DNA from: Streptomyces xanthophaeus
GTDB lineage: Bacteria; Actinomycetota; Actinomycetes; Streptomycetales; Streptomycetaceae
Direction of reading: 5' to 3'
DNA length: 64,000 nt
Assembly: GCF_000725805.1 (NCBI RefSeq)
Contig: NZ_KL647133.1
Coordinates: 248,001 to 312,000 of the forward strand
A model generated the notes under the pieces. That model ran no database searches and was not told the DNA's origin. It was given only the letters and a program-made list of their open reading frames with translations. The position numbers and the translations under genes are program-made. The stretch's first letter is position 1, and the number at the start of each line of letters is the position of its first letter. Shown in pieces: positions 11,983-59,194 of the stretch.

Positions 11983-13167
11983 TCAGGCCACCGCCGGCGC
12001 CCGTACGCCCCTGCGCGCCGCGTCGACGATGGGGGAGCCGCGGAACTCCCGGGCGAGCCCGGTCAGCGGCCTGCTGTCCAGGCGGTACGGGTCCGTCTTC
12101 CCCGCTCCGCCGCCGGGACGCGGCGCGGCGCCTGCCGTCCGGCTCTGGCAGGCCGCGGCGAGCATGGCCGCGTCCGCCACCACGGCGGCCCGTTCCCCGT
12201 CCATGCCCTGCCCGCGCGCGGCCTCGTACGCGGCCGCCCGCACGTCCGGGTCGAACCAGGGGGCGAGCGCCAGGATCCCGTCGTCGATGAGGGACTCCCG
12301 GTGGATCAGCCGGATCCCGACCGGCGACCACCAGGCCAGCGGCACGGAGCGGGCGTTGGAGGCGGTGAAGCCGCGCAGCGCCTTCGACAGCGGGGTCAGC
12401 CGCCGGTACCGGCTGTAGTCCAGCCAGGCCGTCGAGCCGCCGACCAGGGGCACGATGAAGCCCGCGCCGACCATCATGCCCGCGGCGGCCGCCATGGGCG
12501 GTGCCACGTCCGTGGACAGGTACACCCAGTCGCGGCCTGCCCAGCGGGCCGCCACCGAGGCCCACTTGGCGGCGAGGTAGCCCAGGTCCAGCACCCCGCC
12601 GACGACGATCAGGGCCAGCCCGGTCCGCAGCGGCCGCAGCGAACGGTCCGCGCGCAGCAGCCACTTCGCGCACAGGTGGGTCAGCGCCGAGGTGCCCACG
12701 GTGTGGGCCACCAGGAAGCAGACGATCATCTCGCGGATCCACGGCGTGGTGGCGTAGTACGTGTCCAGGTCCCGGAGCCGCTCCACCGGTGCGTCGCCGA
12801 TCAGGAACAGGACGACGATCGCCACGGTCGCCGCACCGAACACGGCGGCCGTCAGCCGCGTGGCCCGCCGCACGGCCCCGGCCGGGCCGCCGCGCCATTG
12901 CAGGACCAGGACCACGCACGTCCCGGAGAACACGGTGGCCAGGCAGAACACCAGCGGCGCGGAGAAGTTGACCACGCCGGTGAAACGGTTGACGGCGGAG
13001 ATCGTCGGCGGCGCCGCCAGGAAATTGATCGGAGCGCCCACGACGAGCAGCGCGCACGCGGCCCGGTTCAGCGGCTGGTCCCAGTCGCGGCGCAGCATGG
13101 GCGCCTTGATCAGCAGGGCCAGGACCATCAGGAATCCCGGCAGGTACAGCAGGAGCCCGCCGTTCAC
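11983..13167 (-). CDS. MAB_1171c-like polytopic membrane protein, cassette 1
   Basis: A 394-residue protein with seven or so hydrophobic segments in the first 260 residues and a soluble, probably cytoplasmic C-terminal region. It has the blocks PLVFCLATVFSG, VLQWRGGP and PVERLRDLDTYYATTPW in the membrane part, and YRRLTPLSKAL, WWSPVGIRLIHRES and LAPWFD in the tail. The same blocks recur in the protein encoded at 56720-57907, so the two are paralogues. It starts with GTG overlapping the stop of the FAD enzyme gene (GTGA). Molecular function is unknown; transport is only a database-style guess. Confidence 0.75.
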   Translation of the reverse strand: MNGGLLLYLPGFLMVLALLIKAPMLRRDWDQPLNRAACALLVVGAPINFLAAPPTISAVNRFTGVVNFSAPLVFCLATVFSGTCVVLVLQWRGGPAGAVRRATRLTAAVFGAATVAIVVLFLIGDAPVERLRDLDTYYATTPWIREMIVCFLVAHTVGTSALTHLCAKWLLRADRSLRPLRTGLALIVVGGVLDLGYLAAKWASVAARWAGRDWVYLSTDVAPPMAAAAGMMVGAGFIVPLVGGSTAWLDYSRYRRLTPLSKALRGFTASNARSVPLAWWSPVGIRLIHRESLIDDGILALAPWFDPDVRAAAYEAARGQGMDGERAAVVADAAMLAAACQSRTAGAAPRPGGGAGKTDPYRLDSRPLTGLAREFRGSPIVDAARRGVRAPAVA

Positions 13168-14639
13168 CGGGCCTGTCCGACGGCGTCCGCGGGGCCGACC
13201 GGGTCCACCGGGCCGGAGACCGGGCCGGAGACCGGGCCGGAGGCCGGGCCCAGTCCGGCGACGGCCCGCTCGGCGACGGAGAGCGGCGGCGCCTGGAGGG
13301 CGCCCCGCTCCGAGGCGCGCAGGACGTGCCAGACCACCGAGGGGCGCAGCCAGTGGGTGGGGGTGCTGCTCATGGTGAGGACGTTGAACAGGGCGGCGGT
13401 CAGCACCTCGTCGGTGGTGGCCCCCGTCATCAGCCGGTTGACGTACCCGTTGAGCAGGCCGGTCCCGGCCCGCGGCTTCATCCCGGTGGCCCCCGGGTAC
13501 AGGATGTCCTGCGAGGTGGCCAGCTCCCACGCGGTGCTCACCTGCGGGGCGATCGCGCGCTGCGCCTCGCGGCAGAAGCCGGGGTGGGCGAGGCCCTTGG
13601 CCCGCAGCAGGGTGCGTACGGCCAGCAGGCCCTGGGCGGCGACCGTCATGCCCTGCCCGTACAGGGGGTTGAAGGTGGCGACCGAGTCGCCGACGGCGAA
13701 GAAGCCGTCGGGCAGTTCGGCCTTCTCGAAGTAGACGCGCCGGTTGGCCGTGCCCTGGGTGACGGCGACGTCCGTCAGGGGCTTCCTGCCTTCGAGGAGT
13801 TCGCCGACGATCGGGTCCCGGATGCCCTTGGCGAACGGGATGAACCGGTCGGGGTCGCCGGTCGGCTGGCCGCCCCGGGTGCCGGAGAGGGTGGCCTGCC
13901 ACTGGCCGTTCTCGATGGGCACGATCGTCGCGGTCTGTCCGGGTACGGGCACCCGCGGGTCGGACTGCACGTTGATGATGGGGAAGCCCATCTCGTGCGC
14001 CCCGGGCGGGGCTTCGAAGATCCGGGTCGCGTAGACGAGGCCGGAGTCGACCTCGGCCTGGCGGATGCCGCTCACGCCCAGGGTCTGGAGCCAGGTCCGG
14101 GCGCGCGAGCCGCGTCCGCTGGCGTCGATCACGAGGTCGGCGCTGACCAGCAGGTCCTTCTCCTGCGGGGTGTCGACGCGGACGCCGGTGACCTTGGCCG
14201 CGGTGCCTTCGAGGCCCCGTACGCGGCTCTGCTGGAGCGTGGTGACCCCCTTGAGGGCGGTCACCCGGGCGCGGACGACGGAGTCGAGGAGGTCGCGGCT
14301 GCAGGAGATGTTGAACTGCTTCTCCCCGCAGCGCGGGATCCAGCCCTGCGCGGTCTTGGTGACCAGGTCGGTGGGCAGGCTGCGGCGGATGGCTCCCGCG
14401 TCCGTCCAGTCCTGGGTGATGCCGGGCAGGATCTGCTCGATGGCGCGGGCGCCGCCGGACCACAGGAGGTGGGTGTGCCGGGCCTGCGGCAGCCCGCGGC
14501 GCGGCGCCGGGCCCTCGGGCAGCGGGTCCGCGTCGATGACAGTGACCGTCGCGTGCTCGGCGAGGACGGCCGCCGCGAGGAGGCCGGCCAGACTGCCGCC
14601 GATGACGACGGCGTGGCGGGGCGGGGAAGACTGGTTCAT
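13164..14639 (-). CDS. FAD-dependent monooxygenase/hydroxylase-like protein, cassette 1
   Basis: A 491-residue flavoprotein. HAVVIGGSLAGLLAAAVLAEH near the start is the dinucleotide-binding fold and ends with an acidic VIDAD; VIDASGRGSRARTWL is the DG-type NADPH/FAD motif, and FFAVGDSVATFNPLYGQGM is the second FAD-binding (GD) motif. This pattern matches group A aromatic hydroxylases and related squalene-epoxidase-like enzymes. The C-terminal 30 residues are Gly/Pro repeats (GPVSGPVSGPV). It starts at ATG 14639, lies 71 bases after the peptidase gene and overlaps the membrane protein gene by 4 bases. The equivalent gene is missing from the second cassette. The substrate is unknown. Confidence 0.82.
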   Translation of the reverse strand: MNQSSPPRHAVVIGGSLAGLLAAAVLAEHATVTVIDADPLPEGPAPRRGLPQARHTHLLWSGGARAIEQILPGITQDWTDAGAIRRSLPTDLVTKTAQGWIPRCGEKQFNISCSRDLLDSVVRARVTALKGVTTLQQSRVRGLEGTAAKVTGVRVDTPQEKDLLVSADLVIDASGRGSRARTWLQTLGVSGIRQAEVDSGLVYATRIFEAPPGAHEMGFPIINVQSDPRVPVPGQTATIVPIENGQWQATLSGTRGGQPTGDPDRFIPFAKGIRDPIVGELLEGRKPLTDVAVTQGTANRRVYFEKAELPDGFFAVGDSVATFNPLYGQGMTVAAQGLLAVRTLLRAKGLAHPGFCREAQRAIAPQVSTAWELATSQDILYPGATGMKPRAGTGLLNGYVNRLMTGATTDEVLTAALFNVLTMSSTPTHWLRPSVVWHVLRASERGALQAPPLSVAERAVAGLGPASGPVSGPVSGPVDPVGPADAVGQAR

Positions 14640-14710
14640 CGTGTCGTGCTCTCTGTCAGGGCCGTGCTGAGGGCATCGGCGCGAGGGTGCGGCGGCTGGC
14701 GTGGCGCAGG

Positions 14711-15292
14711 TCACCGGCGTGACACGGGGCTTCCCCAGCCGAGCGAGGTCTTGATGCGCTCGATCGCCTCGGGGAACTGTTCTTCCCGGGGTGCGGGCAG
14801 GTAGGGCCGCAGGAGCTTGCCGAGGTGCAGCCCGAACATCTCGGCCCGGATCTCCGCCGGGTCCCCCTGGTCGGCCCGGGCGGCGGCCTGCCGGACCACG
14901 GCGTCCAGCCCGTTGCCCGGGTCGAGCAGTTCGGCGAGGCAGCCGTGGCGTCCCGTCAGCCGGGCGGCGACCGCCATGCCCGGCCCGAGACTGTCGCTGG
15001 TCCCCTCGTCCAGGTGCCACAGCTCGTGGCAGGCGATGACGAGCTGGTGCTCGGGACGGGTGTGCGCCTCGACGACGATCAGGTCGATGTCGTCGAGCTC
15101 CAGCCACAGGCCGCTCGCCGTGTCGGGCGGGAAGGAGGCGAAGTGGAAGTCGACTTGCCGGTCACTGCCGCGGTGGCGGGCGTAGGCGGCGCACAGCCCC
15201 CCGATGACCTCCGCGACCTCGCCCGGCGGCTCCAGGCGGATGTCCTTCAGCAGGTCGGAACCCAGCTTTCGCATGGCCCGTGTGGTCCTCAT
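14711..15292 (-). CDS. ImmA/IrrE-like HExxH metallopeptidase, cassette 1
   Basis: A 193-residue soluble protein with the zinc-peptidase motif HQLVIACHELWHLDEG (His 89, Glu 90, His 93). It is preceded by FPPDTASGLWLELDDIDLIVVE, a strand pattern seen in ImmA/IrrE-type peptidases; these often cleave a partner regulator. The paralogue at 57904-58461 has the same order: RHRGRRVDFR, FPPGTASGLWLDM and HQLVILGHELWHMK. Automated annotation sometimes calls such proteins toxins of toxin-antitoxin systems; nothing here shows toxicity. ATG 15292 overlaps the stop of the regulator gene (ATGA), so translation is probably coupled. Confidence 0.8.
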   Translation of the reverse strand: MRTTRAMRKLGSDLLKDIRLEPPGEVAEVIGGLCAAYARHRGSDRQVDFHFASFPPDTASGLWLELDDIDLIVVEAHTRPEHQLVIACHELWHLDEGTSDSLGPGMAVAARLTGRHGCLAELLDPGNGLDAVVRQAAARADQGDPAEIRAEMFGLHLGKLLRPYLPAPREEQFPEAIERIKTSLGWGSPVSRR

Positions 15293-16365
15293 GGCGCTTT
15301 CCCCTCGGCGGTGCGGCCATCGGCCGCCGGTCCGCCCTTCGTGCCCGGTATTCCGAGCTGCCCCTCGCGCGCGAGGAGGTCGTCCAGGTGGTCGGCCAGC
15401 GATTTCCAGCCCTGCGGGGACAGCCGTCCGGCCCTGGTGACGATGCTCCGTACGTCGTGCGCCCGCATCACCGCCAGCATCGGGTTCTGCGCCTCCCGCT
15501 CGGTCGACTCCAGTTCGCGTTCGATCCCGGACAGTGCGGTGGCGATCGCCTCGGCGTCCTCGGCCATCAGGAAGCCGCCGTCGACCCCGTAGAAGCGCTG
15601 GATCCCGGCGGCCGCCGCCAGGTTCGGCAGTCCCTCGCGCTGGGCGAGACGGGTCAGGGACTGGCCGGAGGCGTCGAAGGACTTGGCGATGGCGGCCAGC
15701 GAATGGGGCTGGCCGTCCTCCCGCGGACGGGTCCGGCGCAGGTGCTCGAACCGCTGGTGCACCTGCTCCTTCAGCGGCAGCCGGGGCGGCCTGCCGTCGA
15801 GGGTCAGCCGGATGGCCTGCGGGGTCATGCCCGTGAGGTGGGAGAGGTGTTCGAGGTCGTCGCACCGCTCCGGCGCGGTGGCCGCCGCGAGGGCGAGGGC
15901 CCGTTCCACCGCGCTCTTGCTGTCGGCGAGGAGGAAACCCGCGTAGACCCCGAAGAACCGCTGGACGCCCGCCGCGTGGCCCAGCCGCGGCAGTCCGGTG
16001 CCCGCGTTGAGGGGGCCGAGGGAGGCGCCGGGTGCGTCGAAGTCGTCGGCTATGGCGGCGAGCGGCCACTCCCGGCCGTGCTTGTCGCGGCGGGTGGCCC
16101 GCAGCCGCAGGAACCGCAGGTGCACGCGCTGGTCCAGCGGCAGTTCGCCGACGGTGCCCGCCACCACCCCGGACACGCGCGCGGGTTCGACCCCGGAGAG
16201 GTGGCTGAGCCGCTCCACGGACAGCACCGCGGCCGGATCCTGGCCGCGCTGCCCGGACAGTTCCTCGATCCGACGCCAGGCCGCGGCGAGGTCGGGTCGG
16301 GCGGCGGCTCGCACCTGCGGATTCTCCGTATGTCGACAAGGCGTTCGAGTGGGGCTGGGCTGCAC
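15289..16365 (-). CDS. XRE-like regulator with two tandem HTH-type units, cassette 1
   Basis: A 358-residue soluble protein containing two similar units of about 120 residues. Each has a helix-turn-helix-like segment (VERLSHLSGVEPARVSGVV and LEHLSHLTGMTPQAIRLTL), then a basic LRLRATRR or LRRTRP region, then a signature (VQRFFGVYAGFLLAD and IQRFYGVDGGFLMAE). A C-terminal tail (MRAHDVRSIVTRAGRL) is shared with the single-unit paralogue at 58526-59194. It is probably the DNA-binding regulator of the cassette and the likely partner of the peptidase. GTG 16365 is chosen because GGGAGG stands 9 bases before it. Confidence 0.75.
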   Translation of the reverse strand: MQPSPTRTPCRHTENPQVRAAARPDLAAAWRRIEELSGQRGQDPAAVLSVERLSHLSGVEPARVSGVVAGTVGELPLDQRVHLRFLRLRATRRDKHGREWPLAAIADDFDAPGASLGPLNAGTGLPRLGHAAGVQRFFGVYAGFLLADSKSAVERALALAAATAPERCDDLEHLSHLTGMTPQAIRLTLDGRPPRLPLKEQVHQRFEHLRRTRPREDGQPHSLAAIAKSFDASGQSLTRLAQREGLPNLAAAAGIQRFYGVDGGFLMAEDAEAIATALSGIERELESTEREAQNPMLAVMRAHDVRSIVTRAGRLSPQGWKSLADHLDDLLAREGQLGIPGTKGGPAADGRTAEGKAP

Positions 16366-16539
16366 GAAGCGTAACCTCCCGACTCCCGCGGAACCAGGCC
16401 GCCCTCAACATTTCCTGCCGTGGGGCTCAAGAAAGGTTGGTATGCCGCTGGACAACCGACCACCGACCCCTGCCATGCGGCTCACGGCCGGTGGCGCGGT
16501 CGCCGGGGAGAGAGTTGCTCCGGCGGGGCGGTCGCTCCG

Positions 16540-17040
16540 TCAGTCCAGCCGCACGATCACGGCCTGCCCTTCGGCTGCCGCCGCGGTGAGGTACTCCGTG
16601 AGTCCGCAGTAGTAGTCCCTGCCCCACTCCAGGGAGGCCTCGTCCTCCCAGCCCAGGGGGTAGACGTCCGCCGCGAGCAGCTCCGCGGCGTCGACCCCCT
16701 TCAGGAGCTGGTCGTACGTCAGGCGGCCCAGCGCCCCGGCCGCGAGCCCGACGCGGTCCGCGGTCAGGTGGAGCGGCGGACCGTACCCCCAGTCGCCCGC
16801 CGCTCCGAGCGGCTCCTCCCCGTGGACCACGTCCACGGGGAAGCTCGCCCGCCGCAGGAGGAAGCGCAACAGGTCCCACGTCTTGTAGGTGGAGAAGTGC
16901 CGCGCCCCGGCGGGCGAAGCCCCGGCATCCAGCTCGGAGTCCTGCATCTCCTGGATCCACTCGCGCATCCGGTCCGGTTCCCGGACGGCACGTTCCAGCT
17001 CGGCGGGCGACACGCGGAAGTACTCACCGATCACGCTCAT
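16540..17040 (-). CDS. DUF1877 (YfbM-like) family protein
   Basis: A 166-residue soluble protein. The opening MSVIGEYFRVSPAELERAV, the central LGWEDEASLEWGRDYY and the short C-terminal YLTAAAAEGQAVIV agree with the DUF1877 pattern, in which a small alpha/beta protein senses or binds an unknown ligand. The middle segment TYKTWDLLRFLLRR is also typical. No enzyme motif is visible. It begins at ATG 17040 and follows the next minus-strand gene by 51 bases, so the two may share a transcript. Confidence 0.75.
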   Translation of the reverse strand: MSVIGEYFRVSPAELERAVREPDRMREWIQEMQDSELDAGASPAGARHFSTYKTWDLLRFLLRRASFPVDVVHGEEPLGAAGDWGYGPPLHLTADRVGLAAGALGRLTYDQLLKGVDAAELLAADVYPLGWEDEASLEWGRDYYCGLTEYLTAAAAEGQAVIVRLD

Positions 17041-17091
17041 GGCCGGAGGGTAGGCGCCGCCACTGACAGCGACCCGAGTCGCCGGGGGGCG

Positions 17092-17991: not shown

Positions 17992-18417
17992 ATGTCCGTG
18001 ACCGTGTTCGCGACCCTTGCCCGTACCACCGCCCCGCAGATCGCGCTGCGCCGGTTCCTCGCCCTCGACGCGATCGTCACCACCGCCAACGCCCTCGCCT
18101 ACGTGGCCTTCGCGGGCCCGCTCGGCGAGCTGTTCGGCGTCGGCCGTACGACCGTCCTCGTGTTCGGCGTCCTCCTCACGCTCTACGGGGCCGCCGTGGG
18201 CCTGCTGGCCTCGCGCCGGCAGCCCCCGGCCTTCCCGGTGACCTGCGTGGTCGAGGCCAACTACGCCTGGGCCGTGCTCAGCCTGGTCTCCCTCTTCGCG
18301 TGGTTCTCGCCCACCACCGCCGGGGCGGTGTGGATCGCGGCGCAGGCCCTCACCGTCGCCGCGTTCGCCGTCCTCCAGCAGCTGGCCCTGCGCTCGCGCG
18401 GCTCAGAAGCCCAGTGA
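17992..18417 (+). CDS. Small four-helix integral membrane protein
   Basis: A 141-residue protein with four hydrophobic segments (FLALDAIVTTANALAYVAF, VLVFGVLLTLYGAAVGLLA, YAWAVLSLVSLFAW and AVWIAAQALTVAAFAVLQQ). It is widespread in Streptomyces under the label integral membrane protein, with no known function. ATG 17992 is chosen because CGGAGG lies 10 bases upstream; the upstream extension to 17905 has no coding character. The last 15 bases overlap the 3' end of the convergent XRE regulator gene. An operator-like repeat lies about 115 bases upstream. Confidence 0.75.
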   Translation: MSVTVFATLARTTAPQIALRRFLALDAIVTTANALAYVAFAGPLGELFGVGRTTVLVFGVLLTLYGAAVGLLASRRQPPAFPVTCVVEANYAWAVLSLVSLFAWFSPTTAGAVWIAAQALTVAAFAVLQQLALRSRGSEAQ

Positions 18418-19206
18418 GCGCAGGTACTTCGCCGTCGCCGGGTCGGCCGGGAGCATCGTCTCGATGGCCAGCTCGGCGACGGTCACGTCCATCGGCGTGT
18501 TGAAGGTGGAGATGGACGAGACGAAGGACAGCAGCTGGCCGTCGTGCTCGATCCGCAGCGGCAGGGCGATGTACGGGACCGCCTCCTCGGGTTCGGCGTC
18601 CGCAGGCCCGTCCGTCCCGGGCCGGTCCGGCACGGGGTACGCCGCCACCTCCTCGTACAGGGCGCGCAGCGGCGCCGAACGGGACAGGGCGATCTGCCGC
18701 TCCATCTGCGCCAGCAGGTGCCCGCGCCACTCCCTCAGGTTGTGGATCCGCGGGGCGAGGCCCTCGGGGTGCAGGGTGAGCCGCATGGCGTTCAGCGGCG
18801 GCTCCAGCAGGTGCCCGGGCACCCCGTCCAGCAGCATCGTGATGCCCCGGTTCGCCGCCACCACCGTGTAGGTGCCGTCCACCACCAGTGCCGGATACGG
18901 TTCGTAGCCGGTCAGCAGCCGCTCCAGGCCCTCGCGCAGCACGCCCATCGCCGGGTCGTCGAGCGGGGTGTGCGGATAGCGCGGGGCGTAACCGGCCGCC
19001 AGCAGCAGGGCGTTGCGGTCCCGGACCGGCACCTCCAGGTGGTCCGCGAGCCGCAGCACCATCTCCTCGCTCGGCCGGGACCGCCCGTTCTCCACGAAGC
19101 TGATGTGCCGGGAGGAGGAGTCGGCGCGTCCCGCCAGCTCCAGCTGGCTGATCCCGCGCCGCTCCCGCCAGTCGCGCAGCAGCGCGCCCACCTTCGCCGT
19201 CGTCAT
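18403..19206 (-). CDS. XRE-family regulator with MmyB-like ligand-binding domain
   Basis: A 267-residue regulator. The N-terminal XRE helix-turn-helix spans about residues 5-65 (LLRDWRERRGISQLELAGRADSS, then RHISFVENGRSRPSEEMVLRLA). The C-terminal PAS-like MmyB domain, with VVDGTYTVVAANRGITMLL, is thought to bind a fatty acid or similar small molecule. The ending LAIETMLPADPATAKYLRSL is characteristic. Such regulators usually control one adjacent gene. Here the neighbour is the convergent membrane protein, with which it shares 15 bases of 3' end. ATG 19206 is used; GTG two codons upstream is equally possible. Confidence 0.88.
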   Translation of the reverse strand: MTTAKVGALLRDWRERRGISQLELAGRADSSSRHISFVENGRSRPSEEMVLRLADHLEVPVRDRNALLLAAGYAPRYPHTPLDDPAMGVLREGLERLLTGYEPYPALVVDGTYTVVAANRGITMLLDGVPGHLLEPPLNAMRLTLHPEGLAPRIHNLREWRGHLLAQMERQIALSRSAPLRALYEEVAAYPVPDRPGTDGPADAEPEEAVPYIALPLRIEHDGQLLSFVSSISTFNTPMDVTVAELAIETMLPADPATAKYLRSLGF

Positions 19207-36284: not shown

Positions 36285-38201
36285 TCACGTGTGGAGGACC
36301 ACCAGGCCGTCCGGTGTCGTCAGGCTGCCCGGGGCGACCTCGGTGAAGGTGTGGGGGAGCGCGAGGCAGGGCCGGCCCGTGGGCGGGGCGGCGTCGAAGA
36401 GGTAGGCGGCCGCGGCCGTGCTGTCGCTGACCAGGTGGGGGCCGTCGGACGGCAGGGTCGCGCCGGTGAGCGGGGTGCGGAACAGCCGCCGGAGGTGGCG
36501 CAGGGTCTCCGGGGTGACCGGGGCCCGCGCCTGCTGCGGCAGGGGCCGGGGCTGCGGTTCGGTACCGGCCCGGTACTCGGCGGGGCCCGCGCCGCCGGGG
36601 CCTTGCGGCTCCGGGGCCTCCGTGGTGTCCGGGGCGGCGGGCGCGGCCGCCGGATCCGGCGGGATCGCGCCGCTCAGCAGCAGCGCGAGCAGCACCGGAA
36701 CGGCCTTGCGCCGCAGGGCCCCGGTGGCCGAGGGCAGGCGGTGGGCGTGGACGGCGGGCAGGGAGAGCGCGAGGCTCCCGGCGGCGTCGCCGGTGGCGAT
36801 CGGGACCGCCGAGCAGACCACTCCGGGCGCGTACTCGCGCAGGTCGAAGACGGGCGCCCCCGGGGCCACCGCGTCCAGGGCGCTGAACAGGGCCCTGCTG
36901 TCGGTGATGGTCTGCGGGGTGAGGCGCGCGGGACGGTGCCGGGCCACGTGGTCCGCGCGGCCGTCGTGGTCGAGCTGCGTCAGCAGGCACTTGCCGACCG
37001 CGCTGGCGTGGGCCGCCGCCCGGAAGTCCACCCACTCCTGGACCGGCGGGGTGCCGGGCCCGTCGGCCATCTGCGTGATGCGGACCTCGCCGTCGGCGTA
37101 CCGGCTCAGGTACACCGCCGCGCCCGCGCTGTCCCGCGCCAGGGCCAGGGTGCGCTGGAGCTGTCCCGCCAGCCCGCTGCCCCCGGGCGCGGCGAGCCGG
37201 TCGAGGGCCGGGCCGGGTGCGTACACCCCGGCGCCCGGGCGGTACGCGTACTCCTCCTCGCACAGCATCGCGAGCAGGGGACCGAGTTCCGCCTCGGCGA
37301 GGCCCGACTCCCGGCCGAGCTGTCCGCCCCGCACCCCCAGCGGATGCCTCTCCAGGACCCGTACGACGGCCAGCGCGCGACGGGCCTCCGCCAGAGCCTC
37401 GCCGGTCCCGGAGCCCTGGACGGCCGTCCTGCGGGCCGCCGCCGTCAGCGCGGGGTTCCGCAGTGGACCGGCGGCGGGCCGGTCGGGCGCTGCCGGCGCG
37501 GCGGCGGCCCGCGGGGGCAGGAACGCGGCCAGGACCCCGGGCAGCCCGGGCCGCGGCAGCGGCACCGGGCCCAGATCGGGGTCGTCGGACTGCTCCACGA
37601 AGCGCAGGACGGCCGCCTGGGCGCACAGCCGCACCTCCCGCAGGTCGCGGGCCCCGCTCGGCCGGAAACCGCGGCGGCCGAGCTCGCGGGCCCAGAGCCC
37701 GGCGTCGTGGTGCTCGCCGCGGCGGGAGTGGTCGAGGAAGAGGCAGTAGGCCGCCGGGGCGGTCCACGGACTGCCGGAACCCGCCGCGAACTGCCACCAG
37801 AACCGGGCCCCTTCGCGCATCCCGGACAGGTGCAGCAGGCAGCCGAAGACGACCGCGCCGGCCAGGTCGGTGTGGGCGTGGGCGACGAAGGAGCCGAGCC
37901 GTGCCTGCGCCTCGGGCGCGCACACGGAGGCCAGGCAGGCGGCCTTGAGGTCGCGCCGGGCGCGTTCGGCGTCGAGCGGGCAGTCCCGCGCGGGGTCGCT
38001 CCAGCCGGAGGAGCGGCGCCGGGTCCGGGTCGCGATGCCGGCCCCGCGCGGCGCGCGCAGCAGCCGGGCCTCGGCCGCGCCGAGGTCGTAGTGCGGGTAG
38101 CGGTCGCGGACCCCCGCCCGGGCCAGGAACTCGGCGAGGGAGCGGGGGGTTCCGTCGGCGTCCCCCTGCTCGCGGCGGTCGCGGCGGTCGCGGCGGCTCA
38201 T
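36285..38201 (-). CDS. Large IclR-like regulator with an N-terminal extension
   Basis: A 638-residue soluble protein. Residues 270-320 resemble a winged helix (EARRALAVVRVLERHPLGV, then LAEAELGPLLAMLCEEEYAYR). Residues about 340-500 resemble the IclR effector domain (LARDSAGAAVYLSRYADGEVRI, AHASAVGKCLLTQL, PVFDLREYAPGVVCSAVPI). The first 260 residues are Ala/Arg-rich, with a cell-surface-independent, possibly helical-repeat character (FVAHAHTDLAGAVVFGCLLH, ARFWWQFAAGSGS), and are not recognised. IclR proteins are normally about 250 residues, so this one is extended at both ends. ATG 38201 overlaps the sigma-factor stop (ATGA), so the two are made together. Confidence 0.7.
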   Translation of the reverse strand: MSRRDRRDRREQGDADGTPRSLAEFLARAGVRDRYPHYDLGAAEARLLRAPRGAGIATRTRRRSSGWSDPARDCPLDAERARRDLKAACLASVCAPEAQARLGSFVAHAHTDLAGAVVFGCLLHLSGMREGARFWWQFAAGSGSPWTAPAAYCLFLDHSRRGEHHDAGLWARELGRRGFRPSGARDLREVRLCAQAAVLRFVEQSDDPDLGPVPLPRPGLPGVLAAFLPPRAAAAPAAPDRPAAGPLRNPALTAAARRTAVQGSGTGEALAEARRALAVVRVLERHPLGVRGGQLGRESGLAEAELGPLLAMLCEEEYAYRPGAGVYAPGPALDRLAAPGGSGLAGQLQRTLALARDSAGAAVYLSRYADGEVRITQMADGPGTPPVQEWVDFRAAAHASAVGKCLLTQLDHDGRADHVARHRPARLTPQTITDSRALFSALDAVAPGAPVFDLREYAPGVVCSAVPIATGDAAGSLALSLPAVHAHRLPSATGALRRKAVPVLLALLLSGAIPPDPAAAPAAPDTTEAPEPQGPGGAGPAEYRAGTEPQPRPLPQQARAPVTPETLRHLRRLFRTPLTGATLPSDGPHLVSDSTAAAAYLFDAAPPTGRPCLALPHTFTEVAPGSLTTPDGLVVLHT

Positions 38202-38800
38202 GATTCGGCGGGGGTGTCGAGCAGGCGGGAGAGCCGCCGGTGCGCCTGGCCGAGGTACGAGCCGACGGTGGCCTCGTCGACGCCCATGACGGCGGCGGCC
38301 TCGCCGGGGGAGCACCGGAGCCCGTACCGCAGCAGGACGGCATCGCGCTGCCGCTCGGCCAGCCGGGACACGGCGGAGTAGAAGCGGATGGTGTCGGTCA
38401 GTACTTCGTACTGGTCCGCGTGAGCCTCCTTCAGGGCGGCCTCGAAGGCGCTGATGTCCATCGGCTCGGGACGCTGCTGCCGGGGGGAGCGGCGGCGCTC
38501 CCGGTCGACGATGCAGTGCTTGAGGACGGTCCAGGCGTAGGCGTCCAGCCGGTCCATGTGGAGCATCCGGAGCCACTGGCTCATGATCGAGTCGAAGGCG
38601 GCGTCCACCGTCTGCTCGGCCGCCGCGTCGGAACCCAGGTGCAGGTACGCGAACCGCATGTACGCAGGCCGCCGGTCGGCGTGGAACGCCCAGTACGACA
38701 GGCGTGCCGCCGCGTCCCACTGGCTCATGGGAGTCGGCCGCCGACGCCGGCTCGGCAGTCCCACGGCCCCACCGGACTCCTCCGGTCCGCCATCGCTCAC
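38198..38800 (-). CDS. ECF-like RNA polymerase sigma factor
   Basis: A 200-residue protein with a sigma-70 region 2-like segment (FAYLHLGSDAAAEQTVDAAFDSIMSQW, LDAYAWTVLKHCIVDRERRR) and a clear region 4 (AVSRLAERQRDAVLLRYGLRCSPGEAAAVMGVDEATVGSYLGQAHRRLSRLL in sense). Region 2 is weak, so it may be an unusual ECF factor. The start GTG 38800 follows GAGGTGG at 5 bases. It is coupled to the IclR-like regulator and divergent from a protein with a sigma-like N-terminus at 39015. Confidence 0.75.
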   Translation of the reverse strand: MSDGGPEESGGAVGLPSRRRRPTPMSQWDAAARLSYWAFHADRRPAYMRFAYLHLGSDAAAEQTVDAAFDSIMSQWLRMLHMDRLDAYAWTVLKHCIVDRERRRSPRQQRPEPMDISAFEAALKEAHADQYEVLTDTIRFYSAVSRLAERQRDAVLLRYGLRCSPGEAAAVMGVDEATVGSYLGQAHRRLSRLLDTPAES

Positions 38801-52882: not shown

Positions 52883-52905
52883 GCCGTCCGCGTAAGCTCG
52901 TGGGC

Positions 52906-53841
52906 ATGAACCAGAGCGGCCCCCGGACGGATCTCGGCGACTTCCTGAGGTCCCGACGTGCACGGATCCGCCCCGAGGACGTGGGCATGCGCTCCTACGG
53001 AGGCCGCCGCCGGGTGCCGGGCCTGCGCCGCGAAGAGCTGGCGCAGCTCGCCGGGGTGAGCGTCGACTACTACACCCGCTTCGAACAGGGCCGCGCCGAG
53101 AACGTCTCCGACTCCGTCCTCGGCGCCGTCGCCGCCGCCCTGCGCCTCGATCCGGCCGAAACCGCCCACCTCACCCGGCTCGTCCGCACGGCGGGGCGCG
53201 GCGGCGGGGAGTCCGCCGGTGCCGAGGCCGGGGCGGAGCGGGCCCAGGAGGTCCGGCCGGGGCTGCGCAGACTGCTGGAGTCGATGCCGCAGACCCCGGC
53301 CTTCGTCATCGGCCGCCGCACCGACATCCTGGCCTGGAACCCGCTGTTCGCCACCCTCGTCACCGATTTCGGCGCCCTGCCCCCGGAGCGCCGCAACAAG
53401 GCGTGGCTGGTCTTCCTCGACCCGCAGGTGCGCGGACGGTTCGTCAACTGGGAGCGCAAGGCCCAGGACCTCGTCGCCTACCTGCGCTTCGACCGCGGAC
53501 GCCACCCCCACGACAGCCGGTTCGCCGCGCTCGTCGAGGAACTGTCCGAGCGCAGCCCGGAATTCGCCGGCCTGTGGGCGGCCCAGGAAGTGGCGGAGAA
53601 GAGCCACGGCGGCTACCACCTGCGCCACCCGCTGGTCGGCGAGTTCACCCTCGCCTACGAGAGCCTGAACCTGCCGGACGATCCCGACCAGAGCCTGATC
53701 ACCTACACGGCGGCGGCCGGATCGCCCTCCGAGGCCGCCCTGCGGATCCTGGCCGAGGCCGCGTCGCGGACGCCGGTACGGGCCCCCGGGGCGGCGCACC
53801 CGGACCAGCGGCAGCAGGACCGGCAACGGCAGGACCGGTAG
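52906..53841 (+). CDS. XRE-family regulator with MmyB-like domain
   Basis: A 311-residue regulator. The N-terminal helix-turn-helix (RVPGLRREELAQLAGVSVDYYTRFEQGRA) is of the XRE type with the extra LRREE motif usual in this group. The C-terminal MmyB ligand domain has FVIGRRTDILAWNPLFATLV at about residue 130, a tract rich in aromatics, then SHGGYHLRHPLVGEF. Members often regulate a neighbouring oxidoreductase or membrane protein; here DoxX comes just before. The last 15 residues are Gln/Arg repeats. It starts at ATG 52906. Confidence 0.9.
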   Translation: MNQSGPRTDLGDFLRSRRARIRPEDVGMRSYGGRRRVPGLRREELAQLAGVSVDYYTRFEQGRAENVSDSVLGAVAAALRLDPAETAHLTRLVRTAGRGGGESAGAEAGAERAQEVRPGLRRLLESMPQTPAFVIGRRTDILAWNPLFATLVTDFGALPPERRNKAWLVFLDPQVRGRFVNWERKAQDLVAYLRFDRGRHPHDSRFAALVEELSERSPEFAGLWAAQEVAEKSHGGYHLRHPLVGEFTLAYESLNLPDDPDQSLITYTAAAGSPSEAALRILAEAASRTPVRAPGAAHPDQRQQDRQRQDR

Positions 53842-53847
53842 GCCAGG

Positions 53848-53882
53848 GCCAGGGGCAGCGGCAGCGGCAGCGGCAGCGGCAT
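53848..53882. repeat. Short GGCAGC repeat between convergent genes
   Basis: Four or five copies of GGCAGC between the XRE regulator and the P450 gene. It is a simple slippage-prone tract with no visible function. Confidence 0.7.
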
Positions 53883-53901
53883 CAGGGCGTCCGCAGCGGG
53901 A

Positions 53902-55125
53902 TCAGGGCGCCGGGAGCGCCGCGCGCAGCGACAGCCGCTCGTAGCCGGGGATCAGCACCCCCCGGGCCGGCTTGCGCCCCACGACCTCCAGCCCGGGAAA
54001 ACCCCGCAGGGCCCCCGTCACCGCCCGTATCTCGGCCATCGCCAGCGGCATCCCCAGGCAGAAGTGCGGCCCGGCGCCGAACCACAGCCGGCGCAGCTCC
54101 GCGGGATCGCGCACGCCCTCGCCCGCACCCCCGCCCGCACCCGCACGGGGGCAGCCCGCCGAGTCCCCCGAGCCCGCAGGGGCCGCGGCGGCCGCCCGGT
54201 CCGGCGCGAAGGGCCCGTAGGCCCGCGTGCACAGCAGCGTGGCGATGACCACCCGCTCCCCGGCCTGCACCCGGACCCCTCCGAGCCGCCCCGCCCCGGC
54301 CGCGCTGCGCAGCATCACGGGAGTGGGGGAGGTGACCCGCAGGGCCTCCTCGATCAGCGCGTCGGTGATCCCCTCGGGCCCCCGGCCGGTGTCATGGGCC
54401 AGCGCCACCAGCCGCGGCACGAAGGACACCAGCGTCTCCGTGCCGGTCAGCAGGAACACCCCGACCGCGCCCCGGGCCTCGGCCTCGTCCAGGCCTAGCG
54501 CGCGCAGCCGCCCCGGCACGGTGCTCTCGTCGCCAGCCCGGTACGCCGCCACGGCCGCCTCGCTCAGGCGCGCCAGGGCGGCCCGGGCCCGGTCCGCCTG
54601 ACGCCCGGTCAGCGAGGTGCGCCAGAGCCGGACCCCCGCCACCACCGCGGCGGCCTCGGCGAAGTCGGCCGAGGAGTCGGGCAGCCCCACGAGCTCGCGG
54701 ATCACCTCGGTGGCGCCCCGGCGCACGACCCGTACGAGGTCCACCTCCCCGCCCGCGGCGAGCCGCTGCTCCAGGGCGGCCAGCGGGGCGCGCAGCACCC
54801 GTTCGCAGACGGCCGCCACATGGCCGGGAGTGAACAGTGGGCCGAGCCGCCGTCGCAGCGCCGCGTGCTCGGAGCCCTCCGTGTTGATCAGCACCCGCGG
54901 GCCGAGCACCGACGTCCACAGGCCGCCCGCCGCGCCCGGCCCCGTCTTGGTCCAGCGCTCGGGGTCCATGAGCACCTCACGGGCGAGGCGCGCGTCGCTG
55001 ACCACCACACCGACCCGCGGCACCCGCACCACCGGGCCGCGCGCCCCGGCCGCGCTCAGCAGCCGGTACGCCACGGGATGTGCGGCCGTCTGGACCCGTC
55101 GTTCCCAGCGCTCCCACTCGTCCAT
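53902..55125 (-). CDS. Cytochrome P450
   Basis: A 407-residue soluble P450. [16 protein letters not shown] is the heme-ligand loop with Cys at about residue 355. EEALRV contains the ExxR of helix K. The I helix reads [14 protein letters not shown] where A/G-G-x-D/E-T is expected, so the oxygen-activating Thr is present but the surrounding residues differ. Between helix K and the heme loop is an Ala/Gly/Pro-rich insertion of about 30 residues ([14 protein letters not shown] onward). No ferredoxin, reductase or biosynthetic gene lies beside it, so the substrate is unknown. It starts at ATG 55125. Confidence 0.9.
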
Positions 55126-55266
55126 CGGCGCAGGCTACTGCCGCCGATGGCTTGAAGTGACCCCTGCGGCATGGATCTTGACCTGTCTGCCGCGTATCGA
55201 AGCCGAGCCGTGATCGTTTCTTCAGGCGTAACCCCTACATCTGCTGCGGAATCGGGAGGACGCGCG

Positions 55267-55851
55267 GTGACCGCTTGGCAGTACTTCGCCGGGGCGGGTC
55301 TGGTGGCGGCGCTCTGCCCCCTGCACGGCCACGTGGCGGTCGCGGGCGACGGCCATGGCCGGGGGGCCCGGATCGACCTGTGCGTGCCCGCCGGGCAGCC
55401 GCGGCCCCCCGGGACCCGTCCGTCGGTCAAGCCCTCGGTCCCGGCCCTCGTGCCCGGGACCGGCGGCCCGACCGTGCACCACCCGGGGGGCACGCCCCGG
55501 CCCCCCGGGCCGGCCGCCCCGGCAGCCCGTCCCGTCCCGGCGGCACCCGTCCCGGGCGGACCGGCCGCGGAGCCGGGGGCCGCCGGGGCGGTCGAGGACC
55601 ACAAGCCCGCGGAGCCCGCACCGGGCCCGGCGGCCGAGCCCGTACGGGCCGCGGCCGAAGCCCCCGAGCGGGCCCTCCCCGCAGCCGCGGTCGCGCGCGT
55701 CAGCGCCTTCCACGTGCGTCCGTACCGCTCCGTCGCCGTGGAACGGCGCAACCCGGCCGGCATGTCCACCCTGATGCTCATGGTGGTCGTCACCACCCCC
55801 GCCGTCCTCGCAGCCGCCGCGCTGCGGCCCCGCTCCAAGGGCCGCGGCTGA
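55267..55851 (+). CDS. Pro/Ala-rich surface or secreted protein with C-terminal membrane helix
   Basis: A 194-residue protein, not recognised. It has a hydrophobic start (WQYFAGAGLVAALCPLHGHV), a long low-complexity Pro/Gly/Ala region (residues 45-135), and a C-terminal hydrophobic segment (MLMVVVTTPAVLAAAAL) followed by RPRSKGRG. This resembles a wall-spanning protein anchored at both ends or a signal/anchor pair. GTG 55267 is chosen because GGGAGGA is 7-13 bases upstream; the ORF from 55171 has no such site. It precedes the DUF4239 gene by 95 bases. Confidence 0.6.
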   Translation: MTAWQYFAGAGLVAALCPLHGHVAVAGDGHGRGARIDLCVPAGQPRPPGTRPSVKPSVPALVPGTGGPTVHHPGGTPRPPGPAAPAARPVPAAPVPGGPAAEPGAAGAVEDHKPAEPAPGPAAEPVRAAAEAPERALPAAAVARVSAFHVRPYRSVAVERRNPAGMSTLMLMVVVTTPAVLAAAALRPRSKGRG

Positions 55852-55946
55852 CCGGCGCGGCCGACCCGTGCGGGCCGGCCTGCGAGCGGCCTCCGCACGC
55901 CCACCACTGACCCACCGCCCCACCGATCCACACCGGGAGAATCCAC

Positions 55947-56723
55947 GTGTCCGAATGGCTGGTCCTGGCCATCGCCATGGCGCTCGTCTGCGCCCTCGTC
56001 CTCACCATCACCGCGATCCGGCACCGCCGGGCCGCCGATGACGAGGACACCAGCGAAACCCCCGACGTCATCGAGTACATGACGATGATGGTGGGCGTGG
56101 TCTACGCGATCGTGCTCGGTCTGGCCATCGCGGGGGTCTGGGAGGCGCGCGGCGCCGCCGAGGACAGCGTGCGCCGCGAGGCCCAGGCGCTGTACGAGGT
56201 CACCCAGCGCGCCGACGTCTATCCGGCCGCCGTGCGCGACCGGATCCGCGGTGAGGTGGACGCCTACGTCTCCCACACCGTGGCCGTGGACTGGCCGCTG
56301 CTGACCTCGGGCGAGGGCGCCTCGCCCGAGGGGGCCCAGCTCCTCGGCAAGCTGCGCACCGACGTCACCCACCAGAGCCCGGCCACCGAGCTCCAGGCGC
56401 AGGCCTACCAGCCGCTGCTGGACCACATCGCCGCCGCCGACGACGCACGCCACTCGCGGACCCAGAGCTCCGAGTCCACGCTCCCGGGGGTGGTCTGGTT
56501 CGGGCTGCTGGTCGGCGGGGTGGTCACGGTCGGCCTGATCTTCACCCTGCAGATCCGCCGGTCGGGCCGGGAGCTTCTGCTGGCCGGGCTGTTCAGCGCG
56601 CTGATCGTGTTCCTGCTGTTCATGGTGTGGAGCTTCGACGCCCCCTACGGCCGGGACGGGATCGATTCGGCAGGCCCCTTCCAGGACCTGTTCCCGACCC
56701 TGGCGGCGGCCGCCGCCCGCTAG
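55947..56723 (+). CDS. DUF4239 (bestrophin-like) membrane protein
   Basis: A 258-residue membrane protein. It has two hydrophobic segments near the start (WLVLAIAMALVCALVLTI and MMVGVVYAIVLGLAIAGVW), a long soluble helical region of about 100 residues, and two more at the end (VVWFGLLVGGVVTVGLIFTL and LLLAGLFSALIVFLLFMVW). This topology and GVVYAIVLGLAIAGVWE match the DUF4239 family, distant relatives of bestrophin channels. The start is GTG 55947 after GGGAGAA. The 3' end overlaps the convergent membrane protein of cassette 2 by 4 bases. Confidence 0.85.
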   Translation: MSEWLVLAIAMALVCALVLTITAIRHRRAADDEDTSETPDVIEYMTMMVGVVYAIVLGLAIAGVWEARGAAEDSVRREAQALYEVTQRADVYPAAVRDRIRGEVDAYVSHTVAVDWPLLTSGEGASPEGAQLLGKLRTDVTHQSPATELQAQAYQPLLDHIAAADDARHSRTQSSESTLPGVVWFGLLVGGVVTVGLIFTLQIRRSGRELLLAGLFSALIVFLLFMVWSFDAPYGRDGIDSAGPFQDLFPTLAAAAAR

Positions 56724-57907
56724 CGGCTGCTGCTGCCCGACGGGGCCACTTCCCGGCGTACGGACGCGACCACCGGGGAGTGGCGCAGGGCGTGCGAGAT
56801 CCTCAGCAGGTCGCGCGGCCCGTCCGCGGTGTCGAGCACGGTCTCCTCGCTGGCCACGATGACCCGGCCCTCCGGGTCCGCGGAGCGCGCCTGGACGGCG
56901 GCCGCGACCATGGCGGCGTCGGCGACCGCGCGGGCGGTCTCCTCGTCGGCCCCGGCCGCGACGGCGCTCGCATAGGCGTCGTCGCGGTGGCGCGTGTCGA
57001 AGTAGGGCCCCAGGTGCAGGAAGCCGTCGTGGATGTCGGATTCGCGCTGGATCACGCGCAGCTCGCCGGCGGTCCACCAGGACATCTGGACGGAGGGGGT
57101 ACCGCTGGGCGCGGAGATCTGCATCTCGTGCCAGAGCGTGCCGAGCCGACGGTAGGTCGTCCAGGTGTGCCAGTTGTCCGAGAGGCGCTGGCAGACGAGG
57201 GGGACCACGAAACCGATGGCGCTGATCAGCGCGCCCAGGGAGGCCAGCGGCGGGGCGGCGTAGGTGCTCAGGCCGTCCAGGTCGTTCCCGAGCCAGCGGG
57301 CGACGACCGCGGTCATCTTGGTGGCGTCGTAGGTCAGGTTGAAGATGTAGCCGGAGACGATGATCACCAGGCCGACGCGGAGCCAGCCGCGCACCTGGAG
57401 CGACCAGCGCCAGCACAGCACGACCATCACGACGGCCGCCACGTGGTGCGCGAGCAGGTAGAGCGTGATCATCATGCCGATGTACGGCGTGTTCGCGTAG
57501 TAGGTGTCGAAGTCGCGCAGCCGCTCGACCGGGGTCTCACCGAGGGCGAACAGCGCCACCAGGGCGACGATCACGATGCTGTAGGCCAGGATCCAGCGCC
57601 GTGAGATGCGCCTGGTCTCTTCGGGCGGCCCGCCCCGCCAGTTGACCATCAGGACCAGGCAGGACGCGCTGAACGCGGTGATCAGGCAGTACACCAGCGG
57701 GGCAGAGACGTTGACGATGCCGGTCCAGCGGTTGACCGCGGCGATGGTCGGCGGCGCGGCGAACGTGAAGACCAGCCCTGCCAGGGTCAGCAGGGCGCAG
57801 ACCGAGCGCAGCAGCGGGTCGCGCCAGTTGTGCCGCAGGGCCGGCACCTTGAAGGCGAGCGCGATGGCCATCGCGCCTGCCGGTATGTAGTAGTCCTCGC
57901 CGTTCAA
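56720..57907 (-). CDS. MAB_1171c-like polytopic membrane protein, cassette 2
   Basis: A 395-residue paralogue of the protein at 11983-13167. Shared blocks are PLVYCLITAFSA, VNWRGGPPEETRR and PVERLRDFDTYYANTPY in the membrane part, and YRRLGTLWHEM, WWTAGELRVIQRES and LGPYFD in the soluble tail. It has seven or so hydrophobic segments, then about 140 cytoplasmic residues. It starts with TTG 57907, whose last two bases begin the peptidase stop (TTGA); the cassette-1 protein starts with GTGAACGGC at the same overlap, so the start is well supported by comparison. Function is unknown. Confidence 0.77.
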   Translation of the reverse strand: MNGEDYYIPAGAMAIALAFKVPALRHNWRDPLLRSVCALLTLAGLVFTFAAPPTIAAVNRWTGIVNVSAPLVYCLITAFSASCLVLMVNWRGGPPEETRRISRRWILAYSIVIVALVALFALGETPVERLRDFDTYYANTPYIGMMITLYLLAHHVAAVVMVVLCWRWSLQVRGWLRVGLVIIVSGYIFNLTYDATKMTAVVARWLGNDLDGLSTYAAPPLASLGALISAIGFVVPLVCQRLSDNWHTWTTYRRLGTLWHEMQISAPSGTPSVQMSWWTAGELRVIQRESDIHDGFLHLGPYFDTRHRDDAYASAVAAGADEETARAVADAAMVAAAVQARSADPEGRVIVASEETVLDTADGPRDLLRISHALRHSPVVASVRREVAPSGSSSR

Positions 57908-58461
57908 CGGTCGTTCCTGTGCCCCCGGTATCCGAGCGAGGCCTCGATCCGGCCCGCCAACTGGTCACGCTGGGCCGGAGCCCGGTGGCTCGCCGAACCG
58001 GCCAGCCACGTCCTGCACCTGCTGCCCAGCAGTAAACCGAAGGTCTCCGCCTCCGTCTCCTCCTGGACGTCCGCGCGCGTGCGCGCTGCCACGCGCCGGA
58101 CGGTCTCGCCGATGTCCGCCTCGTCGGTCAGCAGCCGCGCGGCGACGGCGGCGCCGTCGACGTGGTGGCTGCAGTGGCCCGCCTTCATGTGCCACAGCTC
58201 GTGGCCGAGGATCACCAGCTGGTGGTCCGGAGCGGTGCGCTCCTCGATGACCACCAGGTCGCGGTCGGCCATGTCGAGCCACAGCCCGCTGGCCGTGCCC
58301 GGCGGGAACGCGGCCATCCGGAAGTCCACCCTGCGGCCACGGTGTCTGCTCATGCCCTCGCAGAGGGCAGCGTAGAGGTCCACGGGTTCCACGGGGGCGG
58401 TCAGCCGGATGCCGGCCACCAGCTCCCCGCACAACCGCCGCTGCTCTCTGCCTATGCTCAC
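57904..58461 (-). CDS. ImmA/IrrE-like HExxH metallopeptidase, cassette 2
   Basis: A 185-residue soluble protein with HQLVILGHELWHMKAG (His 87, Glu 88, His 91), the zinc-peptidase core. FPPGTASGLWLDMADRDLVVIEE comes just before it, as in the cassette 1 protein. The downstream region EETEAETFGLLLGSR holds a conserved Glu that could be the third metal ligand. It starts with GTG 58461, 64 bases after the regulator gene, and overlaps the membrane protein gene by 4 bases. The likely partner is the XRE-like protein encoded before it. Confidence 0.8.
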   Translation of the reverse strand: MSIGREQRRLCGELVAGIRLTAPVEPVDLYAALCEGMSRHRGRRVDFRMAAFPPGTASGLWLDMADRDLVVIEERTAPDHQLVILGHELWHMKAGHCSHHVDGAAVAARLLTDEADIGETVRRVAARTRADVQEETEAETFGLLLGSRCRTWLAGSASHRAPAQRDQLAGRIEASLGYRGHRNDR

Positions 58462-58525
58462 CGTTCTCCCCGTCGGCGCGGATCCGGACCAGGACTCAAG
58501 GATCAGACCCAGACTTTCGACTGGG

Positions 58526-59194
58526 TCAGGATTCGTTCGGTTTTACGCTTTCGAGGAGCATGTCCAGCCATTCGGTCACCTTGTCCCGGTGCTTGTCGCT
58601 GGGCAGTTGTGCGGCGCGCCAGGCGATGCCCCGCACTCCGTGGTTCTGGAGAAGTCTTGCCAGCGGATCGCCTGCCGAAGCGGCCGAGGCCGGTACGGTT
58701 TCCCGCGCGCGGCCAGCGAAGTCCTGAAGCAGCTGTTGCTCGGTCCGCTGGAGCGCGTCGGTCAGGGCGTCGGCGTCGTGGGCGGTGAGGAACCCCGCGT
58801 GGACGCCGAAGAACCGCTGGATCGCGTCGCAGTGTTCCATGGTGGGCCGACGGTCGCCGTTGATCAGCGCCCCGGCCTGCTGGCGTGACATGCCCGCGCC
58901 GTCGGCGATCTCCTGCTGCGTGTAGCGGCGCCCGTTGGACTTGACCCGGGTGCGCCGCAGCAGGTCGAGGCGCTGGAGGAAACGGGCCTGCAGATCGGGT
59001 TCGCCGGCCGGCCGTCCTTCCAGCAGGGTCCTGACCACGTCCGTGGGGACGCCGGAGGCCTCCGAGAGCCGCCGCAGGTCGAAGACCTGGTTCAGTTCGC
59101 GGCCCATCTTGCCCGCGAGTTCGGCAACCCGTGTGACGGTGGCTGCCAAGGGTGCGTTGGCCACCGCGACGGGAGCCGGGAAGCCGTCTGTCAC
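58526..59194 (-). CDS. XRE-like regulator with a single HTH unit, cassette 2
   Basis: A 222-residue protein corresponding to one unit plus tail of the cassette 1 regulator. LRRLSEASGVPTDVVRTLLEG is the first helix-turn-helix-like segment. RRYTQQEIADGAGMSRQQAGALINGDRRPT is a clear XRE-type helix-turn-helix in the second half, ending in the shared signature AIQRFFGVHAGFLTAHDADAL. The tail LLQNHGVRGIAWRAAQL matches the cassette 1 tail. GTG 59194 follows AGGAGA by 8 bases. The upstream region has a palindrome and a divergent promoter. Confidence 0.8.
   Translation of the reverse strand: MTDGFPAPVAVANAPLAATVTRVAELAGKMGRELNQVFDLRRLSEASGVPTDVVRTLLEGRPAGEPDLQARFLQRLDLLRRTRVKSNGRRYTQQEIADGAGMSRQQAGALINGDRRPTMEHCDAIQRFFGVHAGFLTAHDADALTDALQRTEQQLLQDFAGRARETVPASAASAGDPLARLLQNHGVRGIAWRAAQLPSDKHRDKVTEWLDMLLESVKPNES

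Follow-up and report, generated by a model that had tools for sequence, protein, structure and literature searches.

Two Streptomyces xanthophaeus gene cassettes joining an EspR-like regulator, an ImmA/IrrE-like zinc peptidase and a receptor-like seven-helix membrane protein

Introduction

In ImmA-ImmR of ICEBs1, IrrE/PprI-DdrO of Deinococcus and CapP-CapH of the cyclic oligonucleotide-based antiphage signaling system (CBASS), a small HExxH zinc peptidase of IrrE-like fold is encoded together with a helix-turn-helix (HTH) regulator, and the peptidase acts on this partner protein. To our knowledge, the activation of ImmA/IrrE peptidases is understood for only a few examples. PprI responds to single-stranded DNA inside the cell (PMC10904395, available part of the article), and pairs of such peptidases with Xre proteins were described in general by Makarova et al. 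2009 (PMC2701414, available part of the article). Here we analyzed a stretch of 64,000 nucleotides from Streptomyces xanthophaeus (contig NZ_KL647133.1, positions 248,001 to 312,000; below, the window), which holds two gene cassettes, A and B. They share the peptidase and the HTH regulator with the three systems above, but add a seven-helix partner for nearly every peptidase, a regulator resembling EspR and often an enzyme gene.

Membrane sensor, proteolysis, repressor and enzyme output are also joined in BlaR1-BlaI; in BlaR1, however, sensor and protease domain share one chain, whereas the receptor-like protein and the peptidase of the cassettes are encoded by separate genes. Likewise, 7TMR-DISM, 7TMR-HD and LytS/BtsS-type receptors combine seven helices with a cytosolic signaling output, but the output domain is part of the same chain, while in the cassettes the output seems to be the separate peptidase. 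Compared to the known proteolytic HTH switches, the new elements are the receptor-like partner and the swappable enzyme. In the literature searched, which covered few subscription papers and no preprints, we found no published description of the module, as an original prediction made on this DNA had presumed, and none of a receptor-like protein combined with a protease and a regulator.

The reading best supported by our data, to which we give about even chances, is that each cassette is a self-contained chemical-response switch composed of sensor, protease, regulator and enzyme. The membrane protein, a member of the DUF6545 family, would span the membrane, expose its N-terminus on the outside and bind an extracellular small molecule through a seven-helix bundle resembling G protein-coupled receptors (GPCR) and through conserved outer loops, as suggested by its structural model and its conservation. 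The near-constant gene pairing suggests that its cytosolic domain would turn on or release the zinc peptidase encoded next to it. By the precedents of ImmA-ImmR, IrrE-DdrO and CapP-CapH, the peptidase would then cut the EspR-like regulator of its cassette. Loss of the regulator would derepress the operon, including any enzyme gene present in the fourth slot, and this enzyme, which in cassette A would be the flavin monooxygenase resembling Lsd18 and MonCI, may make, modify or destroy the sensed compound. Gene content, pairing and order, the conservation of the zinc ligands, the family relations and the exchange of the fourth gene are established.

Results

Gene layout of the two cassettes

In both cassettes an HTH regulator, an HExxH peptidase and a seven-helix membrane protein are encoded in the same relative order on the minus strand (Table 1), as the original prediction had stated. 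Identical gene order, which it had also claimed, applies to these three genes; cassette A (regA, pepA, monooxygenase, memA) has an additional monooxygenase gene between pepA and memA, while cassette B reads regB, pepB, memB. The predicted 4-base overlaps at the starts of the membrane-protein genes were confirmed, as GTGA at 13164-13167 and TTGA at 57904-57907. The overlap of memB is with the stop of pepB, but the partner of memA is the monooxygenase gene instead of the peptidase gene. A further overlap of 4 bases joins pepA and regA when the pepA start at 15292 is taken. The peptidase motifs FPP[DG]TASGLWL and HQLVI..HELWH, common to pepA and pepB, are seen in the sequence. For regA, a start at 16314 is more likely than the 16365 proposed earlier, because GGAG lies a few bases upstream and the region is alike in three relatives. 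The codons AACGGC had been put forward as a signature shared by the membrane-protein genes after the start; one relative listed begins with MNG, while others begin with MDG, MQG, MKG, MSS and so on, and these varied N-termini rule out a family signature.

Both paralogous cassettes are indeed in the window, but the genome has seven such membrane proteins in total, four of them encoded at positions 260 to 405 kb of contig C2. A peptidase gene was found within 2 kb of six of the seven DUF6545 genes, and five of these six also have an EspR-like regulator. The seventh (L016:7962-9170, plus strand) stands alone, with neither peptidase nor regulator nearby; its neighbors, named by eye, are like short-chain dehydrogenase/reductase (SDR), major facilitator superfamily, aminotransferase and chorismate mutase genes, and the region looks like a biosynthetic cluster. 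Another paralogue (L014:6747-9238, plus strand) is ordered membrane protein, EspR-like regulator, peptidase, and is convergent with a gene for 1137 amino acids (aa), the start of which resembles a polyketide synthase by eye.

Table 1. Features of cassettes A and B and of the DNA upstream of regB (window coordinates).
Feature	Coordinates	Strand	Remarks
memA, seven-helix DUF6545 / MAB_1171c-family membrane protein, 394 aa	11983..13167	-	
Flavin adenine dinucleotide (FAD)-dependent monooxygenase, Lsd18/LasC and MonCI homologue, 491 aa	13164..14639	-	cassette A
pepA, ImmA/IrrE-like zinc peptidase, HELWH, 193 aa	14711..15292	-	alternative gene-finder start 15274
regA, EspR-like HTH regulator, 341 aa, tandem-duplicated N-terminal part	15289..16314	-	start in the original prediction 16365
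memB, seven-helix DUF6545 / MAB_1171c-family membrane protein, 395 aa	56720..57907	-	apparent GPCR-like helix arrangement in the predicted model
pepB, ImmA/IrrE-like zinc peptidase, HELWH, 185 aa	57904..58461	-	
regB, HTH regulator, 222 aa, EspR-like by profile	58526..59194	-	
Palindrome CGCCACA-NN-TGTGGC upstream of regB	59283..59297	-	retained in 79 of 80 aligned regions upstream of regB at the B locus
Second box TGTCAA..AT.GTGGCA upstream of regB	59324..59340	-	kept in 79 of 80 aligned regions
Divergent MmyB-like HTH regulator (MLTR_LBD)	59528..60397	+	conserved neighbor of cassette B

The membrane protein is nearly always encoded next to a peptidase

The genus sample comprised 46 Streptomyces genomes, including that of the window, with 123 DUF6545 matches in 38 of them; in the class sample, 23 of 148 genomes had a match. 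Loci were picked by the membrane protein alone, and 120 regions, the window and five further stretches were analyzed; 17 matches in the Streptomyces genomes G107, G128, G161, G182, G193, G246 and G447 and a weak match in G351 were left out, as were matches outside these genomes. Three protein profiles, built by iteration on these same loci, were run on all open frames and yielded 142 membrane-protein genes in 131 loci, 11 of which have tandem copies. Two short-frame matches of the genus, L128 (163 aa) and L177 (139 aa), were not recognized as membrane-protein loci with the profile and are outside the 131; no peptidase match was found near either. As genes were called with our own codon-usage finder, starts are approximate. 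At L069 (~11286-14668), a gene that by eye is like a polyprenyl synthetase is convergent with a tandem DUF6545 pair.

An ImmA/IrrE-like peptidase was encoded on the same strand within 2 kb at 125 of the 131 DUF6545 loci, upstream at 120 and downstream at five, the latter including the L014 type. The remaining six loci had no peptidase within this distance, and at three of them the contig ends. Pairing was found at six of seven loci in the genome of the window, 100 of 104 in the genus, all 13 in other genera of the class and six of seven in G457. An EspR-like regulator was detected within 3 kb at 91 of the 131 loci (same strand: 72 upstream, 7 downstream; opposite strand: 12, all downstream), and outside the genus every locus (13/13) had both peptidase and regulator. 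The homologues are thus not mostly apart, in agreement with the co-occurrence predicted for them, and the association of the three genes is more than chance.

In the reverse search, 37 of the same 46 genomes had matches to the peptidase profile; of these 126 matches, two were the second part of a split gene. While 109 matches lay within 3.5 kb of a DUF6545 match, 17 did not; we inspected the regions of all 17 and of a contig-end case that had a DUF6545 neighbor (L235). Twelve of the 17 had no membrane-protein gene, two had one by profile (L234 and L237), one had a broken one (L230) and two ran off the contig (L233 and L236). All 107 genus-region peptidases were near a membrane-protein gene, a count of little weight, since the regions had been chosen by that gene. 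L230 (5003-8645) is a decaying A-type cassette with the membrane-protein gene broken and a monooxygenase frame matched nearly end to end; no HExxH was found in its peptidase frame.

Over 90 triples, the distances of the three proteins were correlated, most strongly for membrane protein and peptidase (r = 0.87), followed by peptidase and regulator (0.78) and membrane protein and regulator (0.73). These values, which are uncorrected for phylogeny, exceed the permutation maximum of 0.11 (200 permutations). The correlated distances show joint inheritance rather than contact.

Zinc ligands and fold of the peptidase

The HExxH motif is kept in 124 of the 125 peptidases at membrane-protein loci, and the column taken as the third zinc ligand holds E in 109 and D in 16, i.e., an acidic residue in all 125. 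Most members therefore have the zinc ligands, in line with the original prediction. None of the five peptidases of this genome that were scanned (that of L018 was outside the scan) reached the PF06114 cut-off of 22; two were below the threshold (17.5 and 19.7), and three, including pepA and pepB, had no match. As a sequence profile of six peptidases found no peptidase match in the PDB, a fold model was needed, and the predicted model of pepB has an IrrE/CapP-like fold.

Many of 120 listed relatives of the peptidases carry the NCBI name 'toxin-antitoxin system, toxin component', and Makarova et al. 2009 listed the COG2856 peptidase with Xre among predicted toxin-antitoxin pairs (PMC2701414). 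That the cassettes are such a system nevertheless appears improbable. In its available part, the same article set Xre-membrane protein pairs aside, because the type II systems known at that time had no membrane component (PMC2701414). Moreover, the operon often carries metabolic enzymes, and 35 loci have the supposed toxin with no detected regulator.

Family relations of the regulator and the membrane protein

A profile of five cassette regulators matched the structure of EspR (4ndw) at 8.3e-16, C-terminal part included, and the regulator of the L014 paralogue alone matched EspR at 2.7e-20 over residues 9-136 of 146; regB alone had no match in the PDB at 0.01. The cassette regulators share the HTH and the C-terminal part with EspR of Mycobacterium tuberculosis, but the two encoded in the window are extended by a further N-terminal part, which is duplicated in tandem in regA (45% identity over 115 residues).

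memA and memB are 45% identical, and both curated models place them in the MAB_1171c / DUF6545 family, with Pfam DUF6545 scores of 63.8 and 53.3 bits (cut-off 24.4) and NCBIfam MAB_1171c scores of 108.4 and 153.9 (cut-off 100). In the predicted model of memB, the seven helices appear to be arranged as in GPCRs, and a search of this model with VIA-align (residues 1-241) showed resemblance to receptors among the rows listed. The best conserved segment is the second extracellular loop and not a helix, with loop borders read from the model. Annotation lists the family as a transporter, but the model and the gene context suggest a receptor. The original prediction had seen in the membrane protein the output controlled by a proteolytically released regulator; it looks more like a sensor than an output. 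The combination of regulator, peptidase and membrane protein that it had proposed is supported by the gene pairing, the zinc ligands, the predicted IrrE/CapP-like fold and the EspR-like regulators, but the swappable enzyme had been missed.

The fourth slot holds exchangeable enzymes

Almost end to end, the cassette A monooxygenase matches Lsd18/LasC (residues 7-464 of 491, E = 9.6e-105) and MonCI (E = 1.4e-96). In the available parts of their descriptions these flavin epoxidases belong to polyether polyketide biosynthesis, while the homologue in cassette A stands in a regulator-peptidase operon. We defined the fourth slot as the next gene on the same strand within 250 bases after the membrane protein and counted it at 125 loci, the other six of the 131 having no called membrane-protein gene; Pfam and NCBIfam identification was by scanning of cluster representatives. 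A flavin monooxygenase occupied the slot at 30 loci, and five more carry a monooxygenase before the membrane protein, as in A. The other families were SDR (7), cytochrome P450 (7), amidohydrolase (5), amidase (3), an NsdA-type protein resembling tetratricopeptide repeats (TPR) (3) and aldo-keto reductase (1). The remainder comprised a membrane protein weakly like PAP2 (9, match below the cut-off), others (10) and a regulator or peptidase (1). At L112, L123 and L194 the NsdA-family TPR-like gene is followed by one for a DUF3574 protein (L112 was scanned, the other two were assigned by clustering).

Tight coupling to the following gene (same strand, gap of at most 10 bases) was observed for 38 of 111 membrane-protein genes compared to 126 of 758 control genes (Fisher test, p = 4e-5). 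On a tree of 124 membrane proteins, one more locus having been dropped, the fourth-slot labels needed at least 32 changes, with a possible minimum of 10 and 69.9 in shuffles; the front part is therefore kept while the enzyme is swapped occasionally. P450 genes occur in two separate supported clades. The fourth-slot families are unrelated and distributed mostly by clade. A and B fall into one supported clade of 54 rows, which holds all 35 monooxygenase-linked loci. Since the monooxygenase is still present at L153 and L199, the near relatives of B, an ancestor of cassette B most likely had this kind of enzyme, which was then lost.

The enzymes also bear on whether the cassettes could be an anti-phage or DNA-damage response module like CapH-CapP. 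This is very improbable: a PADLOC scan of the 10 cassette proteins (neighbors were outside the scan) found no linked CBASS effector or cyclase, and most of the identified fourth-slot genes encode enzymes acting on small molecules.

Cassette B in named Streptomyces and its upstream DNA

In a scan of named-Streptomyces contigs, the best 80 of 423 relatives were kept, nearly all of them cassette B orthologues by identity and synteny. A S. venezuelae strain also encodes a close relative of memB. Among these 80, the peptidase stands directly before the membrane protein in 79 and the regulator before that in 78. A divergent MmyB-like regulator, its family assigned from the window copy, is present in 76, and in 37 a monooxygenase like that of cassette A directly follows on the same strand. 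Upstream of regB, two conserved boxes were found (Table 1). By our reading, the reverse complement of the second would hold a TTGACA-like -35 for the divergent gene. Either RegB or the divergent MmyB-like protein could bind the palindrome. Allowing two mismatches, it has one match in the window against 0.74 expected; its rarity proves nothing, and only its conservation exceeds chance.

In addition to the divergent gene, the window encodes two more MmyB-like HTH regulators (MLTR_LBD), at 18403-19206 on the minus strand and 53014-53841 on the plus strand. At 36285-38728 on the minus strand, a sigma-70 region 4 protein gene overlaps by 4 bases with the gene of a 638-aa protein that has an IclR C-terminal-like match.

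Evidence weighing against the proposed switch

Several observations weigh against the chemical-response switch. With Foldseek alone, the membrane protein had no significant match (best E 0.23); bundles of seven helices can look alike for geometric reasons, and the structural model covers one subfamily. NCBI names the family 'MAB_1171c family putative transporter', and for a MAB_1171c knockout of Mycobacterium abscessus the available part of one article gives a biofilm mass about 50% lower and reduced minimum inhibitory concentrations of cefoxitin (4 vs 16) and clarithromycin (0.5 vs 2) (PMC8707978). Both are compatible with transport. The membrane protein might then be a transporter or exporter acting with the enzyme in an operon for small-molecule handling or resistance, with peptidase and regulator controlling expression and sensing an internal signal; the persistence of the regulator-peptidase pair in 11 genomes (below) would fit as well. 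We regard this as unlikely, as the predicted model resembles receptors in the rows listed, an outer loop rather than a helix is best conserved, and the membrane protein pairs far more constantly with the peptidase (125/131) than with any enzyme.

At L220-L229 and L231, in 11 of the 46 genomes, the B locus retains regulator, HELWH peptidase and palindrome, whereas membrane protein and monooxygenase are gone. These loci, identified by synteny, account for 11 of the 12 peptidases without a membrane-protein gene and reflect stepwise loss at one syntenic site; at these 11 and at L232, no significant tblastn match to membrane-protein remnants was found (best E 0.071). They count against an obligate three-gene module, since the regulator-peptidase pair can be retained without the proposed sensor. 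Conversely, 40 of the 131 loci have no EspR-like regulator within 3 kb by profile, and 35 of these have a peptidase. At 44 of the 125 loci counted, no tightly linked gene follows the membrane protein on the same strand.

The peptidase might instead act on the membrane protein or on another substrate, with the regulator as an ordinary repressor of the operon. The membrane protein is indeed paired more often with the peptidase than with the regulator (125 vs 91 of 131 loci), the 35 loci just mentioned have a peptidase with no detected regulator, and the distances of membrane protein and peptidase correlate best. Furthermore, in one gene (L198:6340-8022, minus strand) the peptidase and the cytosolic DUF6545 domain are joined in a single open frame that lacks the seven helices. 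Of the 125 loci with matches to both profiles, this is the sole fusion, separate frames being matched at the other 124; as a single gene, it may be a deletion product. A wider search of databases returned the L198 gene again and one protein matching 30% of it, with no second full-length fusion among the scored candidates. We consider this alternative quite unlikely, because the peptidase retains the regulator and its HELWH motif at the 11 loci from which the membrane protein is missing, and because the characterized ImmA, IrrE and CapP act on a partner HTH protein (for ImmA also the available part of PMC2701414).

The palindrome is limited to the B lineage. There it may be an element of the divergent MmyB-like regulator, and a search in 12 clades of two to five loci found a conserved one in the B lineage only, with none in the other 11. 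Its core has one site in the genome, and so has a backwards control, so its presence is not above chance; as the core occurs once, nothing hints at a wider regulon that shares the exact palindrome.

Discussion

Beyond the switch itself, a bolder and more tentative proposal, which we hold possible although the odds are against it, is that Streptomyces possesses a large family of GPCR-fold receptors that signal without kinases, through a separate ImmA-type protease destroying an EspR-like regulator. Outer loops and linked enzymes would co-diversify and form modular switches for small molecules, perhaps hormones or antibiotics.

If true, the chemical-response switch would add a pathway from receptor to protease to regulator to bacterial signaling, and the membrane partner would make the activation of ImmA/IrrE peptidases testable. 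It would also provide a function for DUF6545 and for peptidases that are now labeled 'toxin'. Many uncharacterized chemical sensors would thereby be tied to enzymes, in a genus that makes many antibiotics.

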